Position numbers and translations under genes: made by a program
In this document: positions 16,845 to 59,636 of the stretch, piece after piece
Numbering within the stretch: position 1 is the stretch's first letter
Layout of the letters: the number at the start of each line of letters is the position of its first letter
The notes under the pieces: model-generated
Databases searched by the model: none
Told to the model about the DNA's origin: nothing
What the model saw: the letters and a program-made list of their open reading frames with translations, nothing else
NCBI GenBank assembly: GCA_036504735.1
Contig: DASXUQ010000009.1
Span: 229,204-293,203, forward strand
Length of the DNA stretch: 64,000 nucleotides
Direction of reading: 5' to 3'
Origin: a bacterium
GTDB lineage: Bacteria > Electryoneota > RPQS01

Positions 16845-16869
16845 GTAGGGACACGGCTTGCCGTGTCCG
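16845..16869 (+). repeat. REP-like palindrome, gamma family
   Basis: GTAG followed by GGACACGGC-TT-GCCGTGTCC, upstream of the lipid kinase start. It is the same sequence as the copy upstream of the transposase at 51718 and the inverse of the one inside that gene. Confidence 0.9.
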
Positions 16870-51179: not shown

Positions 51180-51655
51180 GCACTGTTGCCGATTTGCCGG
51201 ACTACCGTTATCGCGGCGCGCGGGCGATGATCCTGATGCACGAACGCGCGATGGCGGAATTTATCGCGACCTGGCGGAGGGCGAAGGCCGCGAACCTCGC
51301 GCTTCCCCAAACCGAAGATCCCGATTATGCGTCGCTGGAGGCGCTGCTGCATCATGTGCTGCGCGCCGCGCGCGGCTATATGGTGTGGATGTGTGAAAAG
51401 CTCGGTCTTCCCGATCCGCAAATTGATCCGGCCCCGCCCGCTGAGCGTGTGGCCGCCGAAGCCGAGGGTTACCTTCTGCACCTGAACTCCCGCTGGCGTC
51501 TGCCTTTGGTTTCGATAGATGAGGAAGCTATGTCCCGACCCTCCTACAAATCCCGCTGGAATATGGACTATCCCATCGAAGCCATGATGGAGCACGCCTT
51601 GGTGCATCCGCAGCGGCACAGGTTTCAATTGGAAGAGATGATGATGGGGCGGTAA
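51176..51655 (+). CDS. DinB-like protein, copy B of the mnmE-mnmG block
   Basis: 159 residues. A paralog of 49405-49911: 'YRYRGARAMILMHERAMAEFIATWRRAKA', 'LEALLHHVLRAARGYMVWMCEKLGLPDP' (parts shown) and 'MMEHALVHPQRHRFQLEEM' at the end, with His residues in equivalent places. It overlaps the TfoX-like gene by four bases and is followed by the gamma transposase. The two copies flank OmpA and TfoX, consistent with duplication of a segment. Reaction unknown. Confidence 0.75.
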   Translation: MSTVADLPDYRYRGARAMILMHERAMAEFIATWRRAKAANLALPQTEDPDYASLEALLHHVLRAARGYMVWMCEKLGLPDPQIDPAPPAERVAAEAEGYLLHLNSRWRLPLVSIDEEAMSRPSYKSRWNMDYPIEAMMEHALVHPQRHRFQLEEMMMGR

Positions 51656-51673
51656 TGGGTGAACGATTGATGG

Positions 51674-51698
51674 GTAGGGACACGGCTTGCCGTGTCCG
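51674..51698 (+). repeat. REP-like palindrome (gamma) upstream of the gamma transposase
   Basis: GTAG followed by GGACACGGC-TT-GCCGTGTCC, 20 bases before the transposase start at 51718. Confidence 0.92.
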
Positions 51699-51717
51699 TC
51701 ATCGTGAGGACAATGCC

Positions 51718-52281
51718 ATGTCGCAAGGCGACGATGATCTGCCACATCGAAAAATCACTCGGCTCCCGTGGTATGATTACGCAGGTCGTGGGGGATATTC
51801 CGTCACCATCTGCACATGGCAGCGTGCGGAGTTGTTCGGAAAAATATATGACGGCAAAATGTTGATGAGCCGGGAAGGTGAGATCGCCGCATCAGATTGG
51901 CTCCAAATTCCAACGCATTATCCAAAGATCGTGCTCAATGTATTTGTGATCATGCCGAACCACATGCATGGTATTCTCTTTCTTCCCCAAGCGGAATATG
52001 ATGAGGCTCTTCGAATCGGGCCGGACACGGCAAGCCGTGTCCCTACCCGTACTTTTGGACCTTTGCATCCATGCTCGCTGCATACGATTGTCGGCAATTA
52101 CAAAGCAGGCGTGACTCGCAAGATTCGAGCAACGGTTAACCAGCCAATCATTGTTTGGCAATCCCGTTTCCACGAGCACATTATCCGCGATGAGGTCGAT
52201 CTTTCAAATCACCAGCAGTATATTAAAAACAATCCTTCAAATTGGGAGCGGGACAAGCATAATCCGGACTTTGTCGAATGA
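51718..52281 (+). CDS. REP-associated tyrosine transposase (RAYT), gamma
   Basis: 187 residues from the ATG at 51718 (GAGG upstream). Landmarks are GYSVTICTWQRAELFG (residues 26-41), the HUH motif MPNHMHGILF (His82, His84), 'VWQSRFHEHIIRD' and 'QQYIKNNPSNWERD'. Where the alpha and beta proteins have Tyr (FYEHI), this one has His (FHEHI), so either the catalytic Tyr is elsewhere or activity is altered. Residues 101-109 (GPDTASRVP) are encoded by a gamma palindrome inverted to the upstream copy. The stop overlaps the mnmG start (ATGA), so mnmG translation may depend on it. Confidence 0.87.
   Translation: MSQGDDDLPHRKITRLPWYDYAGRGGYSVTICTWQRAELFGKIYDGKMLMSREGEIAASDWLQIPTHYPKIVLNVFVIMPNHMHGILFLPQAEYDEALRIGPDTASRVPTRTFGPLHPCSLHTIVGNYKAGVTRKIRATVNQPIIVWQSRFHEHIIRDEVDLSNHQQYIKNNPSNWERDKHNPDFVE
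52022..52046 (-). repeat. REP-like palindrome (gamma) inside the gamma transposase gene
   Basis: On the minus strand GTAG is followed by GGACACGGC-TT-GCCGTGTCC, the same sequence as at 51674 in the opposite direction, in frame about 17 codons past the HUH motif. Confidence 0.92.
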
Positions 52282-55158: not shown

Positions 55159-56109
55159 ATGACGAAATCTGTTTTCGAAGAACTTCAGGGTCTGACTACC
55201 GAGCAGCGTAATCCGGCCACCATGCGGCTGGATACGATGTCGGTGCCGGAGATTCTGCTGGCGATGAATGAGCAGGACCGCACCGTGCCGGAGCGAGTGG
55301 CGGCGGCCCTGCCGGATATTGAGCAGGCGGTGAACCTGATTGTCCCGGCCCTGCAGCGCGGCGGCCGGCTGATTTATGTGGGTGCGGGGACCTCCGGCCG
55401 GCTGGGTGTTTTGGATGCCGCCGAGTGTCCACCGACCTTTGGCACCGAACCCTGGCAGGTGCAAGGGTTTATTGCGGGCGGTTATGGAGCCTTAGTCAAG
55501 GCGGTGGAAGGCGCGGAAGATAACGCCGGACAGGCCGTGCGCGACTTGGATTTGTGTTCTTTATGCGCCAATGATGTGGTCTGCGGAATTACGGCCTCGC
55601 GGCGCACGCCATATGTTATCAGTAGTTTGCAGTACGCACGCGAGCGGGGTAGCAAGACAGTGTTTATTATATGCAACGATCCGCCTCCCCCTACCCCCCC
55701 GCAAGCAGGGGGGACAGACGACTTTGCCGATGTGGTGATTTCTGTCCCGGTAGGGCCTGAAGCCCTGACGGGCTCGACCCGCCTGAAAGCCGGCACCGCT
55801 ACCAAGTTGGTGCTGAACATGCTGACCACGGCTTCGATGGTGCGGCTGGGCAAGTGCTATGAGAACCTGATGGTGGATTTGCGTACGACCTCGGAAAAAC
55901 TCAAAGCTCGCATGCGCCGCATCCTGATGGACCTCACCCAATGCGACTATGAGTGGGCCGATGCCTTAATGAAAGATGCCGACGGTGAACTGAAGACGGC
56001 CCTGGTGATGCATTGGAAAAATGTCGGCGCGGACAGAGCGCGGGAATTGCTCGAAGCGAACGGCGGAGTGATAAGAAGAGTGATTGAAGGAACGCATGAT
56101 GCTAATTGA
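55159..56109 (+). CDS. murQ: N-acetylmuramic acid 6-phosphate etherase MurQ
   Basis: 316 residues. The SIS-fold signatures are GGRLIYVGAGTSGRLGVLDAAECPPTFGT (parts shown: YVGAGTSGRLGVLDA and ECPPTFGT), 'GVAEDNAGQ'-type EGAEDNAGQAVRDL and 'GSTRLKAGTATKLVLNMLTT'. MurQ splits the lactyl ether of MurNAc-6-phosphate to GlcNAc-6-phosphate and lactate in cell-wall recycling. After 'FIICND' an extra loop PPPPTPPQAGGTDD is encoded by a C-run/G-run palindrome (55681-55715), making the protein slightly longer than usual. Partners such as AnmK are not nearby. Confidence 0.94.
   Translation: MTKSVFEELQGLTTEQRNPATMRLDTMSVPEILLAMNEQDRTVPERVAAALPDIEQAVNLIVPALQRGGRLIYVGAGTSGRLGVLDAAECPPTFGTEPWQVQGFIAGGYGALVKAVEGAEDNAGQAVRDLDLCSLCANDVVCGITASRRTPYVISSLQYARERGSKTVFIICNDPPPPTPPQAGGTDDFADVVISVPVGPEALTGSTRLKAGTATKLVLNMLTTASMVRLGKCYENLMVDLRTTSEKLKARMRRILMDLTQCDYEWADALMKDADGELKTALVMHWKNVGADRARELLEANGGVIRRVIEGTHDAN
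55681..55715 (+). repeat. family B hairpin inserted in frame in murQ
   Basis: CCTACCCCCCC-GCAAG-CAGGGGGGACAG forms a hairpin within the coding sequence. It adds a Pro/Gly-rich loop of about ten residues on the SIS domain. Confidence 0.8.
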
Positions 56110-56222
56110 TAAAGGTAACATCGGTGACTCTTACAGGGACACACTTCTGGAGAATGCGACTGGAGAGTAAACGCTCATCTTGGCCATACTGAATAACGTC
56201 TTTCTAAAACAGGGGTCGTGAT

Positions 56223-57161
56223 ATGCCCATAATACCGGAACAGCAGATTCCCACGCACCTATGGAGCAATGCTGTACTTCACCTTCCAAAGGAGCTTGTC
56301 CGCTTGTATCAAAAAAATCTTGAAGATGAAGGCTTACTGGATGAAGCGTGTAAGCGGACACCATCAGACTCGGAACTCATAGGAGGGTCTTCTGATGAAG
56401 AGACTATGGCCCACTTTGCGCATCGATTTGCTGCTTCATGTGCGAGAGTCGAGTATCTAATTCTTGATCCTAGTTCGAAATTCCAAGAGGAGTCAAGTGA
56501 CATTCTTACGCTCCTATCTGAAGGACAAGTTTCGATTCTTGACGTGCCATGCGGGTGCGGAGCTGCTGTGCTATCGATGATTGCGACTGTGGCGGATTTG
56601 CGTCAAAGTGGAGTTTTGCCAAAATTGCCTCTGAATGTGGACATCGTCGGAGGTGATATTTCGCCGAAGGCGGCGGAAATGTATCAAAAGCAACTGGCAG
56701 AAATATCAGAATGGTTGACGGCGCAAGGGATCCACCTTACCAGAAAGGCGGAATTCTGGGACGCAAAACGCCCTACGACAACCGCGCAGTTAGTTGACGT
56801 ATGGTTGGATGGAAGGCCACGTGCATCGGGCCAATATCTCGTTGTAGTCGCAGCGTTCGGGGGAGCGATGAAATCCCAGTTCAATGATTTCTCGCGGACC
56901 TTTAACCATGTTGCAGAGCGGCTGTACCAAGGCTCGCGAACACTGTTGTGGGTTGAGCCTGGTATGACAAGCAGCGAGAAGCTCCTCGATAAGGTAGCAG
57001 ACTGGTTCAGGGACAAGATAAGCTGGCTTAAACCCAAAGGCGAGCCACAGCCGAGCATTCGTTTTGACTGGTTTCACCCTATTAAGGCTTTCGAACTACA
57101 CGGCACAATTCTCGTTCGCGAGTTCAGGTCCACACAGGAGACCACAGATGCCAGACTTTGA
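56223..57161 (+). CDS. class I SAM-dependent methyltransferase-like protein paired with a reverse transcriptase
   Basis: 312 residues. Motif I is ILDVPCGCGAAVLS (about 105-118) and motif II VDIVGGDISPKAAEMY (about 139-154). A later 'GQYLVVVAAFGGAM' strand (about 196-210) and LLWVEPGMTSSEKL near 240 complete a Rossmann methyltransferase pattern that distantly resembles Rsm22-type enzymes. The N-terminal 100 residues are helical and acidic. No catalytic NPPY/DPPY or target-recognition domain is seen, so the methyl acceptor is unknown. The last 14 bases overlap the reverse transcriptase start. The whole gene is richer in A/T than murQ before it, suggesting transfer. Confidence 0.75.
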   Translation: MPIIPEQQIPTHLWSNAVLHLPKELVRLYQKNLEDEGLLDEACKRTPSDSELIGGSSDEETMAHFAHRFAASCARVEYLILDPSSKFQEESSDILTLLSEGQVSILDVPCGCGAAVLSMIATVADLRQSGVLPKLPLNVDIVGGDISPKAAEMYQKQLAEISEWLTAQGIHLTRKAEFWDAKRPTTTAQLVDVWLDGRPRASGQYLVVVAAFGGAMKSQFNDFSRTFNHVAERLYQGSRTLLWVEPGMTSSEKLLDKVADWFRDKISWLKPKGEPQPSIRFDWFHPIKAFELHGTILVREFRSTQETTDARL

Positions 57162-58899
57162 GACCCTTGCCGTGAGAGCCTTAAACGAATACCGCAACCT
57201 CTATGGTCCAACGTATCTGGGGCTTAGGCTGCTACTGGACTCGGTAATTGTAGATCCAAAGTCCGAATATGGCGCGCGCCTGATTACACGCAAATTGCTC
57301 TCAGGTTTTGAGCCTAGGTGTCGTTCCTTTCAGGGCATCAAAAGTGCCAACATTAAAGGGCAACCAGAATACCGAACCTTCACGACGTGCAGTCCCATGA
57401 CATGTATGATTGAAGCGTTCATATTGGCGTTCTTGGGTAAACAATCGCAGTTCAACAGCCACACCGCAGTTTACAGCTACCAATGGCCGCCGTCGCTAAG
57501 AAGCGGAAGGAGTTTCGCTTTTTACATGCATGGCTTCACAAAGCTGAATTCCCACATCTCAACACTTCTGACAGATCAGCAAGCGGAGGGAGTGCTGATT
57601 ACTGACATCAAGAGATTCTACGCAAGCGTTCGAACCGAACCGTTGCTCAGGAGACTTCGGGAAAAATTACACTCGATTGAGGACACTAGATATTCCGATG
57701 CAATCGAGAATTTTGCAGCAGCATTGACAAACACCAGCGGTTCAGGAGGAATTCCGGTTGGCCCGCTCCTGAGTGCCATGCTAGGCAACGTAGCATTGGA
57801 ACGTGTAGACACGGAATTAAGCAAGTCTTTTCCCAACAAATATTGTCGTTATGTGGACGACATCTTCATCGTTTGTTCGAGGGCCGAAGAAAAGCTCGTC
57901 AGGCAGCGGATCGCGGCGGTGCTCGAAAACGAAGGGTTGGTTATGCACGAGCGAAAAACTGATTACGTCAGCCGCGAAACTTGGCAAAGACACCACTCTG
58001 GCCTTTATGAACCAACGGCTGAACCGCAGTTTCAAGATCTTGTGAGTGGATTGGTCACCTACCTTGCTGTACATCCGGACAAAGTGAATGACCTTCGAGG
58101 GATTTTCGCCGACGCAGGAGTGAACATCCCTCTCAGTCGGCTCGCCGCGATCTCGACGAGCCCACGATGGTGGGGCTACATAGCTTGGAAAAGTCGCAAA
58201 TGCGGTCTGCGCCCACTACACTTCGTGAAGTCCATATTCGTAAATCAAAAGACAATTCTACAAATGGCTATCCAGATGCGCGATAGGTATTCGCGCCAAC
58301 TGGAACAGATCGTGGCCAAGGGAATACCATTAGGAACTGCTGAACGAAAGTGGTTCGCCCGCGAATGCAGGTACTATGCAAACCGACTTCTTTACTTGCG
58401 CCCGGTAGATGACCTTCCAGAGTTGTTGAAAGTCTTGCCATCGATTGATGAACTTGGCGAGAACCGCCTCCTGATCGAAGCTTACGTTAGCAAAGACGTA
58501 TCTACTCTCCTCAGGTATCCTGGTCGAGTTGTGTCAGCATTTGCCGAACTGTGGTCAGAGACACAATCATCACCTCCCAAGGTATTCCTCTCTGACTACA
58601 TTGATCCAACCGTGTTTGAGAGCCTCTGTGTTCTCTCGCTTTACCGTGTCTTAGAGGTTGACATCGCCGATCGCCATTCGCTCGATTCATCCTCAAATCA
58701 GCTTTACGATTTTTGCGCCGGTGCTGCTCCGCGTCAGCGAGAACTGAACGATCTGTCATATATTGATGAACTGCGGACGCTTCAATTAGGAAGATCGAAA
58801 GAGCAACAGCGCGACCTCATGATCAAGAGGTTTAGCCCGGACGAGACACTATCGTTGCGATTGCTGCGGCTTGGCGCGGGATCGTATGTCAGTGGATAG
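57148..58899 (+). CDS. reverse transcriptase of the defence (Abi/UG-like) type
   Basis: 583 residues from the ATG at 57148 inside the methyltransferase gene. RT motifs in order: motif A GVLITDIKRFYASV (Asp153), motif B GSGGIPVGPLLSAMLGN (198-214), motif C CRYVDDIFIVC (Asp237-Asp238) and motif D LVMHERKT. The long C-terminal part (about 290-583) is helical, with no maturase, endonuclease or integrase domain. Group II intron and retron hallmarks (VTG) are absent, as is a msr/msd-like RNA next to it. The build (RT plus C-terminal alpha-helical region) fits defence-associated RTs such as AbiA/AbiK/UG groups. Confidence 0.86.
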   Translation: MPDFETLAVRALNEYRNLYGPTYLGLRLLLDSVIVDPKSEYGARLITRKLLSGFEPRCRSFQGIKSANIKGQPEYRTFTTCSPMTCMIEAFILAFLGKQSQFNSHTAVYSYQWPPSLRSGRSFAFYMHGFTKLNSHISTLLTDQQAEGVLITDIKRFYASVRTEPLLRRLREKLHSIEDTRYSDAIENFAAALTNTSGSGGIPVGPLLSAMLGNVALERVDTELSKSFPNKYCRYVDDIFIVCSRAEEKLVRQRIAAVLENEGLVMHERKTDYVSRETWQRHHSGLYEPTAEPQFQDLVSGLVTYLAVHPDKVNDLRGIFADAGVNIPLSRLAAISTSPRWWGYIAWKSRKCGLRPLHFVKSIFVNQKTILQMAIQMRDRYSRQLEQIVAKGIPLGTAERKWFARECRYYANRLLYLRPVDDLPELLKVLPSIDELGENRLLIEAYVSKDVSTLLRYPGRVVSAFAELWSETQSSPPKVFLSDYIDPTVFESLCVLSLYRVLEVDIADRHSLDSSSNQLYDFCAGAAPRQRELNDLSYIDELRTLQLGRSKEQQRDLMIKRFSPDETLSLRLLRLGAGSYVSG

Positions 58900-59000
58900 C
58901 GCCTCGATACATTAAACAATTGAAATAGTGCATCGCATCCTGCGCTGGTATCGTCTAGCGTTTTGGCACAGCAAGCTGTGCAACTACTCTGCTCAAGGGC

Positions 59001-59026
59001 GGGCGAACACACAGGTTCGCCCCTAC
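59001..59026 (-). repeat. REP-like palindrome (beta variant) downstream of the RT gene
   Basis: On the minus strand GTAG is followed by GGGCGAACC-TGT-GTTCGCCC. It keeps pairing although the arms differ from the beta consensus (AA/TT in place of CA/TG). Confidence 0.85.
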
Positions 59027-59093
59027 AGGATCATTCATGATGTCCGCACTTGGGGACATAGTTATACCCTCAACCTTCAAGGAGAAAACTCTC

Positions 59094-59636
59094 ATGGCCA
59101 CGAAGAAAACTGTAAAGAAGACCGCGAAGAAAGCAGCCAAGAAGGCAGTAAAGAAGACGGCGAAGAAGGAACTGCCGCCGAGAGTCGAGAAGCAGAAGTT
59201 GCCGGTGGGCAAGGGGCCGATCACGTACACGACCTCGAACACGTTCAAGGCGTCGGTTTCCAAAGTGTGGGACGCGGCCACGAAGCGCGAACACCTCATC
59301 AAGTATTTCCTCGATGACATGCGCGGCAGCTTCGACAAGCCGGGCACGGTGGAATGGTATTGGAAAGAGTGGGGCTGGATGCCGGTGGAAGTGGTGAAGT
59401 ATGTCAAGAACAAAGAACTGGTGATTCAGGCACAGGAGATGATGGGTGGCAAATACAAGACCACCATCCGCTATGAAATCCTGCGCAAGGACAACAAGAC
59501 CATCTTCCGCGTCCACGAGAGCGGTTACCGGAGCAAGGACCTCAAGAGCGCCTTCATGATGTGTGAAGGCTGGACGGAATTCCATTGCTATCTGAAGGCC
59601 CACCTGATGGGTGTGGATCTGCGCAAGGCGGGCTAA
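59094..59636 (+). CDS. SRPBCC domain protein with a histone H1-like lysine/alanine tail
   Basis: 180 residues from the ATG at 59094 (AAGGAG upstream). Residues 1-26 are KKTVKKTAKKAAKKAV-type repeats, the Lys/Ala/Thr pattern of bacterial histone H1-like nucleoid tails. Residues about 40-175 are an SRPBCC/AHSA1-like domain: 'TTSNTFKASVSKVWDAATKREHLIKYFLDD' (parts shown: SVSKVWDAATKREHLIKYF), 'GTVEWYWKEWGWMPVEVVKY' and 'EGWTEFHCYLKAHLMG'. The tail could bind nucleic acid or act by charge, while the SRPBCC pocket would bind a ligand or client. The combination is unusual. Confidence 0.75.
   Translation: MATKKTVKKTAKKAAKKAVKKTAKKELPPRVEKQKLPVGKGPITYTTSNTFKASVSKVWDAATKREHLIKYFLDDMRGSFDKPGTVEWYWKEWGWMPVEVVKYVKNKELVIQAQEMMGGKYKTTIRYEILRKDNKTIFRVHESGYRSKDLKSAFMMCEGWTEFHCYLKAHLMGVDLRKAG

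Follow-up and report, generated by a model that had tools for sequence, protein, structure and literature searches.

Within the window analysed here (64,000 nucleotides from a bacterium of the GTDB lineage Electryoneota; RPQS01), two overlapping genes, one resembling a methyltransferase and the other a reverse transcriptase (RT), lie between murQ and a gene of the SRPBCC family. What kind of system is this pair, and what might a methyltransferase do for an RT? A sequence-only reading had taken the two genes for an undescribed type of antiviral (DRT) system.

A UG36 reverse transcriptase and its overlapping neighbour

The methyltransferase-like gene (56223..57161; an ORF of 312 aa with a conserved family and a predicted fold) and the RT gene (57148..58899; 583 aa) are both on the plus strand, as are all features mapped below. 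They overlap by 14 bases (57148..57161), as first read. This overlap follows from the choice of ATG 57148 as the RT start, which the family alignment favours over the alternative TTG at 57064; in relatives, the overlap between the two genes is usually 1–11 bases. The observation that the pair is AT-richer than its neighbours is borne out by the G+C profile, which runs at ~0.47–0.53 over positions 56000–58999, compared with 0.58–0.61 in murQ and ~0.56–0.60 further downstream. Scans for promoters and terminators gave signals at chance level only.

Profile search and phylogeny, two of the checks suggested along with the sequence-only reading, both place the RT in group UG36. The PADLOC model RT_UG36 (PDLC03775) matches residues 5–579 of 583 with E=1.8e-137, the second-best PADLOC family being Drt8 (E=8.1e-23), and RT_UG35 scores only 50.7 bits; Pfam RVT_1 matches with E=2.7e-13. 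The curated NCBIfam cut-offs are missed for Drt3a (75.8 bits for a cut-off of 200), Drt2 (40.4 for 390), Drt4 (31.1 for 450) and Drt3b (18.6 for 350). A genome scan and one plasmid supplied 25 further near-full-length RTs, and all 26 aligned sequences match the UG36 profile. In an RT-domain tree that also took in UG35, UG17, UG19, UG9, Drt3a, Drt8 and AbiP2 rows, a branch with 99/96 support sets the UG36 RTs (28 rows) apart from the rest; the placement of UG36 beside AbiP2 is weakly supported. The window RT belongs to the more diverse of two UG36 subgroups and is not paired with the RT of G002, the group's other member from the same phylum, which fits the expectation of horizontal transfer.

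On profile and tree evidence, then, the RT is a member of an already named group rather than of an unnamed type, and every member of that group that we found has the methyltransferase beside it, an outcome that the earlier reading had itself set against novelty. What stands of its claim is a probably antiviral RT of UG type that is produced as a single unit with a protein resembling a methyltransferase. Our literature search, which the 2022 UG/Abi classification lay outside, found no test of UG36, no mechanism for it and no paper on UG36 or UG35. That classification reportedly (so its abstract) gives predicted partner genes for most groups, and the methyltransferase–RT pairing may be catalogued there already.

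All of the motifs quoted from the two proteins were found: DVPCGCGA, GGDIS and VEPG in the first, and TDIKRFYASV, GIPVGP and YVDD in the second. In the RT these are TDIKRFYASV (57601..57630), which contains the catalytic Asp153 (26/26 in the family alignment), GIPVGP (57748..57765; located from the ORF and the alignment) and the catalytic YVDD (57850..57861) with Asp237 and Asp238 (26/26). The C-terminal region had been described as helical and lacking a maturase or integrase, and both points hold: AlphaFold2 predicts the last ~290 residues to be mostly helical, with an alpha-repeat-like region at residues ~295–574 (58030..58869), and the Pfam and NCBIfam profile searches matched no maturase or integrase domain. 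The best long-alignment fold matches of the RT model include DRT4, DRT6, Abi-P2 and AbiK, with TM-scores of only ~0.3–0.4. As predicted for UG36, these Class 1 enzymes (DRT4 is UG15) have an RT core and a helical C-terminal domain; unlike it, they have no methyltransferase partner, and at such low TM-scores their domain arrangement may differ. Abi RTs of Class 1 make untemplated, protein-primed DNA (PMC11077055; class description in PMC13174585).

An obligate methyltransferase-like partner

The methyltransferase lies directly upstream of the RT in all 26 loci found through the RT. Starting instead from the methyltransferase, a search of ~1,590 genomes drawn from six groups turned up 17 strong matches, and an RT adjoins every one of the 16 that can be judged, the 17th being at a contig end. 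In each of 23 genomes searched among those with an RT-first locus, the methyltransferase is single-copy and sits at the RT (the L033 copy consists of two pieces of a broken gene). The pairing that was to be looked for beside related RTs is thus strictly conserved. Pairwise distances in the two families are correlated with r=0.965, a value that none of 2000 permutations reached, and dN/dS among Arcobacteraceae is 0.14–0.23 for the RT and 0.09–0.19 for the methyltransferase, indicating purifying selection. The two proteins form an obligate pair that evolves together, the active sites predicted for them are intact, and, judged by 26 divergent loci that share both genes and by dN/dS values of 0.09–0.23, their association is more than chance.

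Three weak methyltransferase matches without an RT (G003, G1474 and G1868) were set aside; on reading they resembled unrelated fragments or DNA methylase-like ORFs. In two metagenome-assembled genomes (L033, 7007–7980; L015, 10310–11128) the methyltransferase gene is broken or shortened, and the RT next to it appears intact.

In group UG35, a domain related to the methyltransferase is itself joined to an RT. The window protein stays below the Pfam and NCBIfam thresholds. All 25 members of its family match one PADLOC model, RT_UG35, in its methyltransferase part, and this is the only PADLOC match of the UG36 methyltransferase; for the window protein the match (PDLC03774, positions 76–153, E=7.5e-9) lies N-terminal to the model's RT part. 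In the UG35 proteins L103 and L105 (~1000 aa) a related methyltransferase-like domain is fused ahead of the RT. The two groups thus share the combination of a methyltransferase-like domain with an RT, but UG35 is a single fused protein of ~1000 aa in a separate clade of the RT tree, whereas the window genes are separate, overlapping ORFs. The PADLOC RT_UG36 model describes only the RT; that a methyltransferase gene goes obligatorily with it is shown by the genomes examined here. In a Methylococcales locus (L159, 1316–4024), the UG36 methyltransferase and RT form a single 902-aa ORF, either a natural fusion or the product of a frameshift or sequence error.

AlphaFold2 models the methyltransferase with a pLDDT of 91.7 and predicts the features of a class I SAM methyltransferase: a Rossmann-like fold, a GxG loop and an acidic ribose contact. 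Its fold matches in the PDB are mainly class I SAM methyltransferases of many kinds, none of which names a substrate. The predicted SAM-binding loop is motif I, DVPCGCGA (residues 107–114; 56541..56564), in which Gly113 is invariant and Gly111 is present in 24/25 members. Asp145, at the end of strand 2 (56655..56657), is the predicted contact to the SAM ribose (Asp or Glu in 25/25), and Asp180, after strand 3 (56760..56762), the predicted contact to the adenine (24/25); Glu245-Pro246 (56955..56960), within a W-[IV]-E-P motif, is invariant. At the motif IV position the family mostly has [NA]F[SNG]G, and the [DNS]PP[YF] signature of DNA and RNA amino-methyltransferases is absent from it, so that motif IV points to no target. 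By this criterion the protein falls outside the standard DNA and RNA amino-methyltransferases; the role of a restriction-type DNA methyltransferase, which we had considered, was rejected on motif IV.

A portable cassette in a defence hotspot

The most telling evidence for what the pair does is positional. Comparison with genomes of the same family shows that murQ (55159..56109) and the SRPBCC-family gene (59094..59636), both mapped as ORFs, are the upstream and downstream edges of a variable site. In G028, murQ adjoins the SRPBCC gene, leaving the site empty, and in G027 a type III restriction-modification (RM) system occupies the place of the window pair. Directly after murQ there is a type IIG RM enzyme in G035, CRISPR-Cas I-E genes in G031, and a HerA/TdpA-like ATPase with a Dam-type methylase in G029. 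Of nine family genomes (the window's among them) whose contigs continue past murQ, five have a recognised or likely defence system there. The 3′ side of murQ is a defence hotspot in this family, and this is the strongest evidence that we have for the function of the pair. Compared with one another, the window (55159–59636) and L139–L148 show UG36, type III RM, type IIG RM, CRISPR I-E and HerA-like/Dam genes alternating 3′ of murQ.

A dispersed palindrome, approximately ACACGGCAAGCCGTGT, has five copies in the window (at 16851, 51680, 52025, 58966 and 63965), where 0.17 would be expected. The RT is followed closely by one of them, and the empty site of G028 contains a similar palindrome. The element looks REP-like. 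Two of the copies lie inside an ORF just upstream of mnmG (51655–52281) that, by eye, resembles a REP-associated (Y1, IS200-like) transposase.

Relatives show the pair moving as a unit. Around the pair, an Aliarcobacter faecis plasmid (L014) and an Arcobacteraceae genome (L023) share a block of 96% DNA identity that comprises just the two genes: it opens 9 bases ahead of the methyltransferase gene and closes at the RT stop codon. Between L014 and L022, similarity extends ~280 bases beyond the RT. The L014 pair sits in a type I restriction-modification island, parts of which are common to L022 and L023, while the cargo between them differs. A 570-aa ATPase-like gene in L014 (7378–9090) overlaps the methyltransferase start by one base, and L022 and L023 have other genes in that place. 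Among 87 genes flanking the relatives, four members match the model for the type I methyltransferase and four that for the type I specificity subunit, and the flanks also include a NERD-UvrD helicase, a helicase with a DinG-type C-terminal domain, an N6/N4 DNA methylase and an MmeI-like enzyme. The plasmid search gave one full relative, and viral contigs (queried with both RT and methyltransferase) and phage records gave none. From these comparisons, the pair is a portable, horizontally moved cassette.

A fixed, portable pair that stands where relatives carry other antiviral systems is very probably a phage-defence system, whatever its mechanism. The original suggestion of an antiviral RT made as a unit with a methyltransferase is therefore probably right, given the strict pairing and the location in a defence hotspot.

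A candidate priming tail and the part of the methyltransferase

The RT ends in SYVSG (58882..58896), a tail that is modelled with low confidence (pLDDT <50) and whose conservation suggests a hydroxyl residue for protein priming: by prediction Ser582, or possibly Tyr580 or Ser579. A Ser or Tyr is found among the last two residues in all 26 of the first-aligned UG36 RTs (a set that includes one truncated protein, L030), as against 16% of 234 flanking ORFs. In an independent check on four RTs found later, two obey the rule, and the near-identical L161 and L162 have Ser at −3/−4 instead. Tails of this kind serve as priming sites elsewhere: DRT10 primes from its terminal Ser456 (PMC12632851), and DRT9 from tail tyrosines (PMC12483538). 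UG36 resembles DRT10 (UG17) and DRT9 in this Ser/Tyr C-terminal tail; those two use a cis noncoding RNA template and have no methyltransferase, the partner in DRT10 being a SLATT protein. UG17 (DRT10-group) RTs from several phyla (L040–L094, e.g. L049, L045 and L057) finish with S, SG or Y, in keeping with the priming serine published for the DRT10 terminus. For UG36, we think it somewhat more probable than not that the RT primes DNA from its own tail.

Our proposal for the pair is as follows. The RT would make single-stranded DNA primed from its own C-terminal hydroxyl residue (Ser or Tyr), and this DNA would stay attached to the RT protein. The methyltransferase, more speculatively, may be an effector or gatekeeper that the RT–DNA adduct holds or releases when a phage disturbs the cell; this last step is drawn by analogy with the DRT1 nitrilase and with the proposed role of the DRT10 SLATT protein. 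The closest precedent for an enzyme under RT control is DRT1, whose nitrilase is governed by protein-primed DNA (PMC13275509). As we picture UG36, both couple a protein-primed RT to an enzyme partner; in DRT1, unlike UG36, the nitrilase is fused and the priming residue is internal (Ser402). We would put at even chances the view of UG36 as a portable, two-gene defence system of the UG/Abi (DRT) kind, with DNA attached to the RT tail and the methyltransferase as obligate partner. That a protein-primed RT and a SAM methyltransferase regulate each other, either by tail DNA controlling the effector or by the methyltransferase licensing the priming tail, seems to us a little less than an even proposition, and casting the methyltransferase as an RT-controlled enzyme, an argument from analogy, is more tentative again.

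The main rival to an effector role keeps the same defence pair and has the methyltransferase modify the RT itself, or its DNA or RNA product, as a licence, a self-mark or a priming gate. The strict pairing and the UG35 fusion do place the methyltransferase next to the RT, and the searched genomes hold no second copy of it. The C-terminal carboxyl methyltransferase PPM1 is also among its many fold matches, but so are numerous other class I enzymes of a generic kind, and with N/A-F-S/N/G-G in the place of [DNS]PP[YF], an amino-methyl target in DNA or RNA is not indicated. We regard such modification as possible but rather unlikely.

It is less likely still that the RT is guided by a cis noncoding RNA, as in DRT2, DRT3, DRT9 and DRT10. 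After UG36, the RT core does score best to the Drt8, UG17 (DRT10) and Drt3a models, and UG17 and Drt3a belong to the RNA-templated Class 2 (PMC13174585; PMC12632851). Yet untemplated Class 1 RTs are among the best fold matches over long alignments, and a flanking noncoding RNA, sought by DNA comparison, a synonymous-site scan and Rfam, gave no signal: the block conserved between L014 and L023 leaves only those 9 bases outside the two genes, in several loci the gene upstream adjoins or overlaps directly, the synonymous scan has no marked rate trough and Rfam has no match. A non-defence or mobile-element RT, such as a domesticated retroelement with a regulatory methyltransferase, would suit a cassette that is AT-rich, patchy and horizontally moved, but it is improbable given the lack of a maturase or integrase, scores far below the cut-offs for the group II intron RT (58.5 bits for a cut-off of 300) and retron St85 (43.6 for 235) models, and the defence genes that replace one another at this site in sister genomes.

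Each DRT system investigated to date has proved to yield an unusual DNA product, and the partners (a nitrilase, a SLATT protein, a noncoding RNA) help to explain how it gives rise to immunity. Our literature search found no DRT described with methyltransferase activity, and mutual regulation of the RT and the methyltransferase would, if true, be a chemistry for which that search gave no DRT precedent. With its strict pairing, its predicted priming tail and a chromosomal slot whose contents are naturally swapped, UG36 becomes a concrete, transferable and testable two-gene system, and the slot 3′ of murQ is a place to seek further defence systems in this uncultured lineage.
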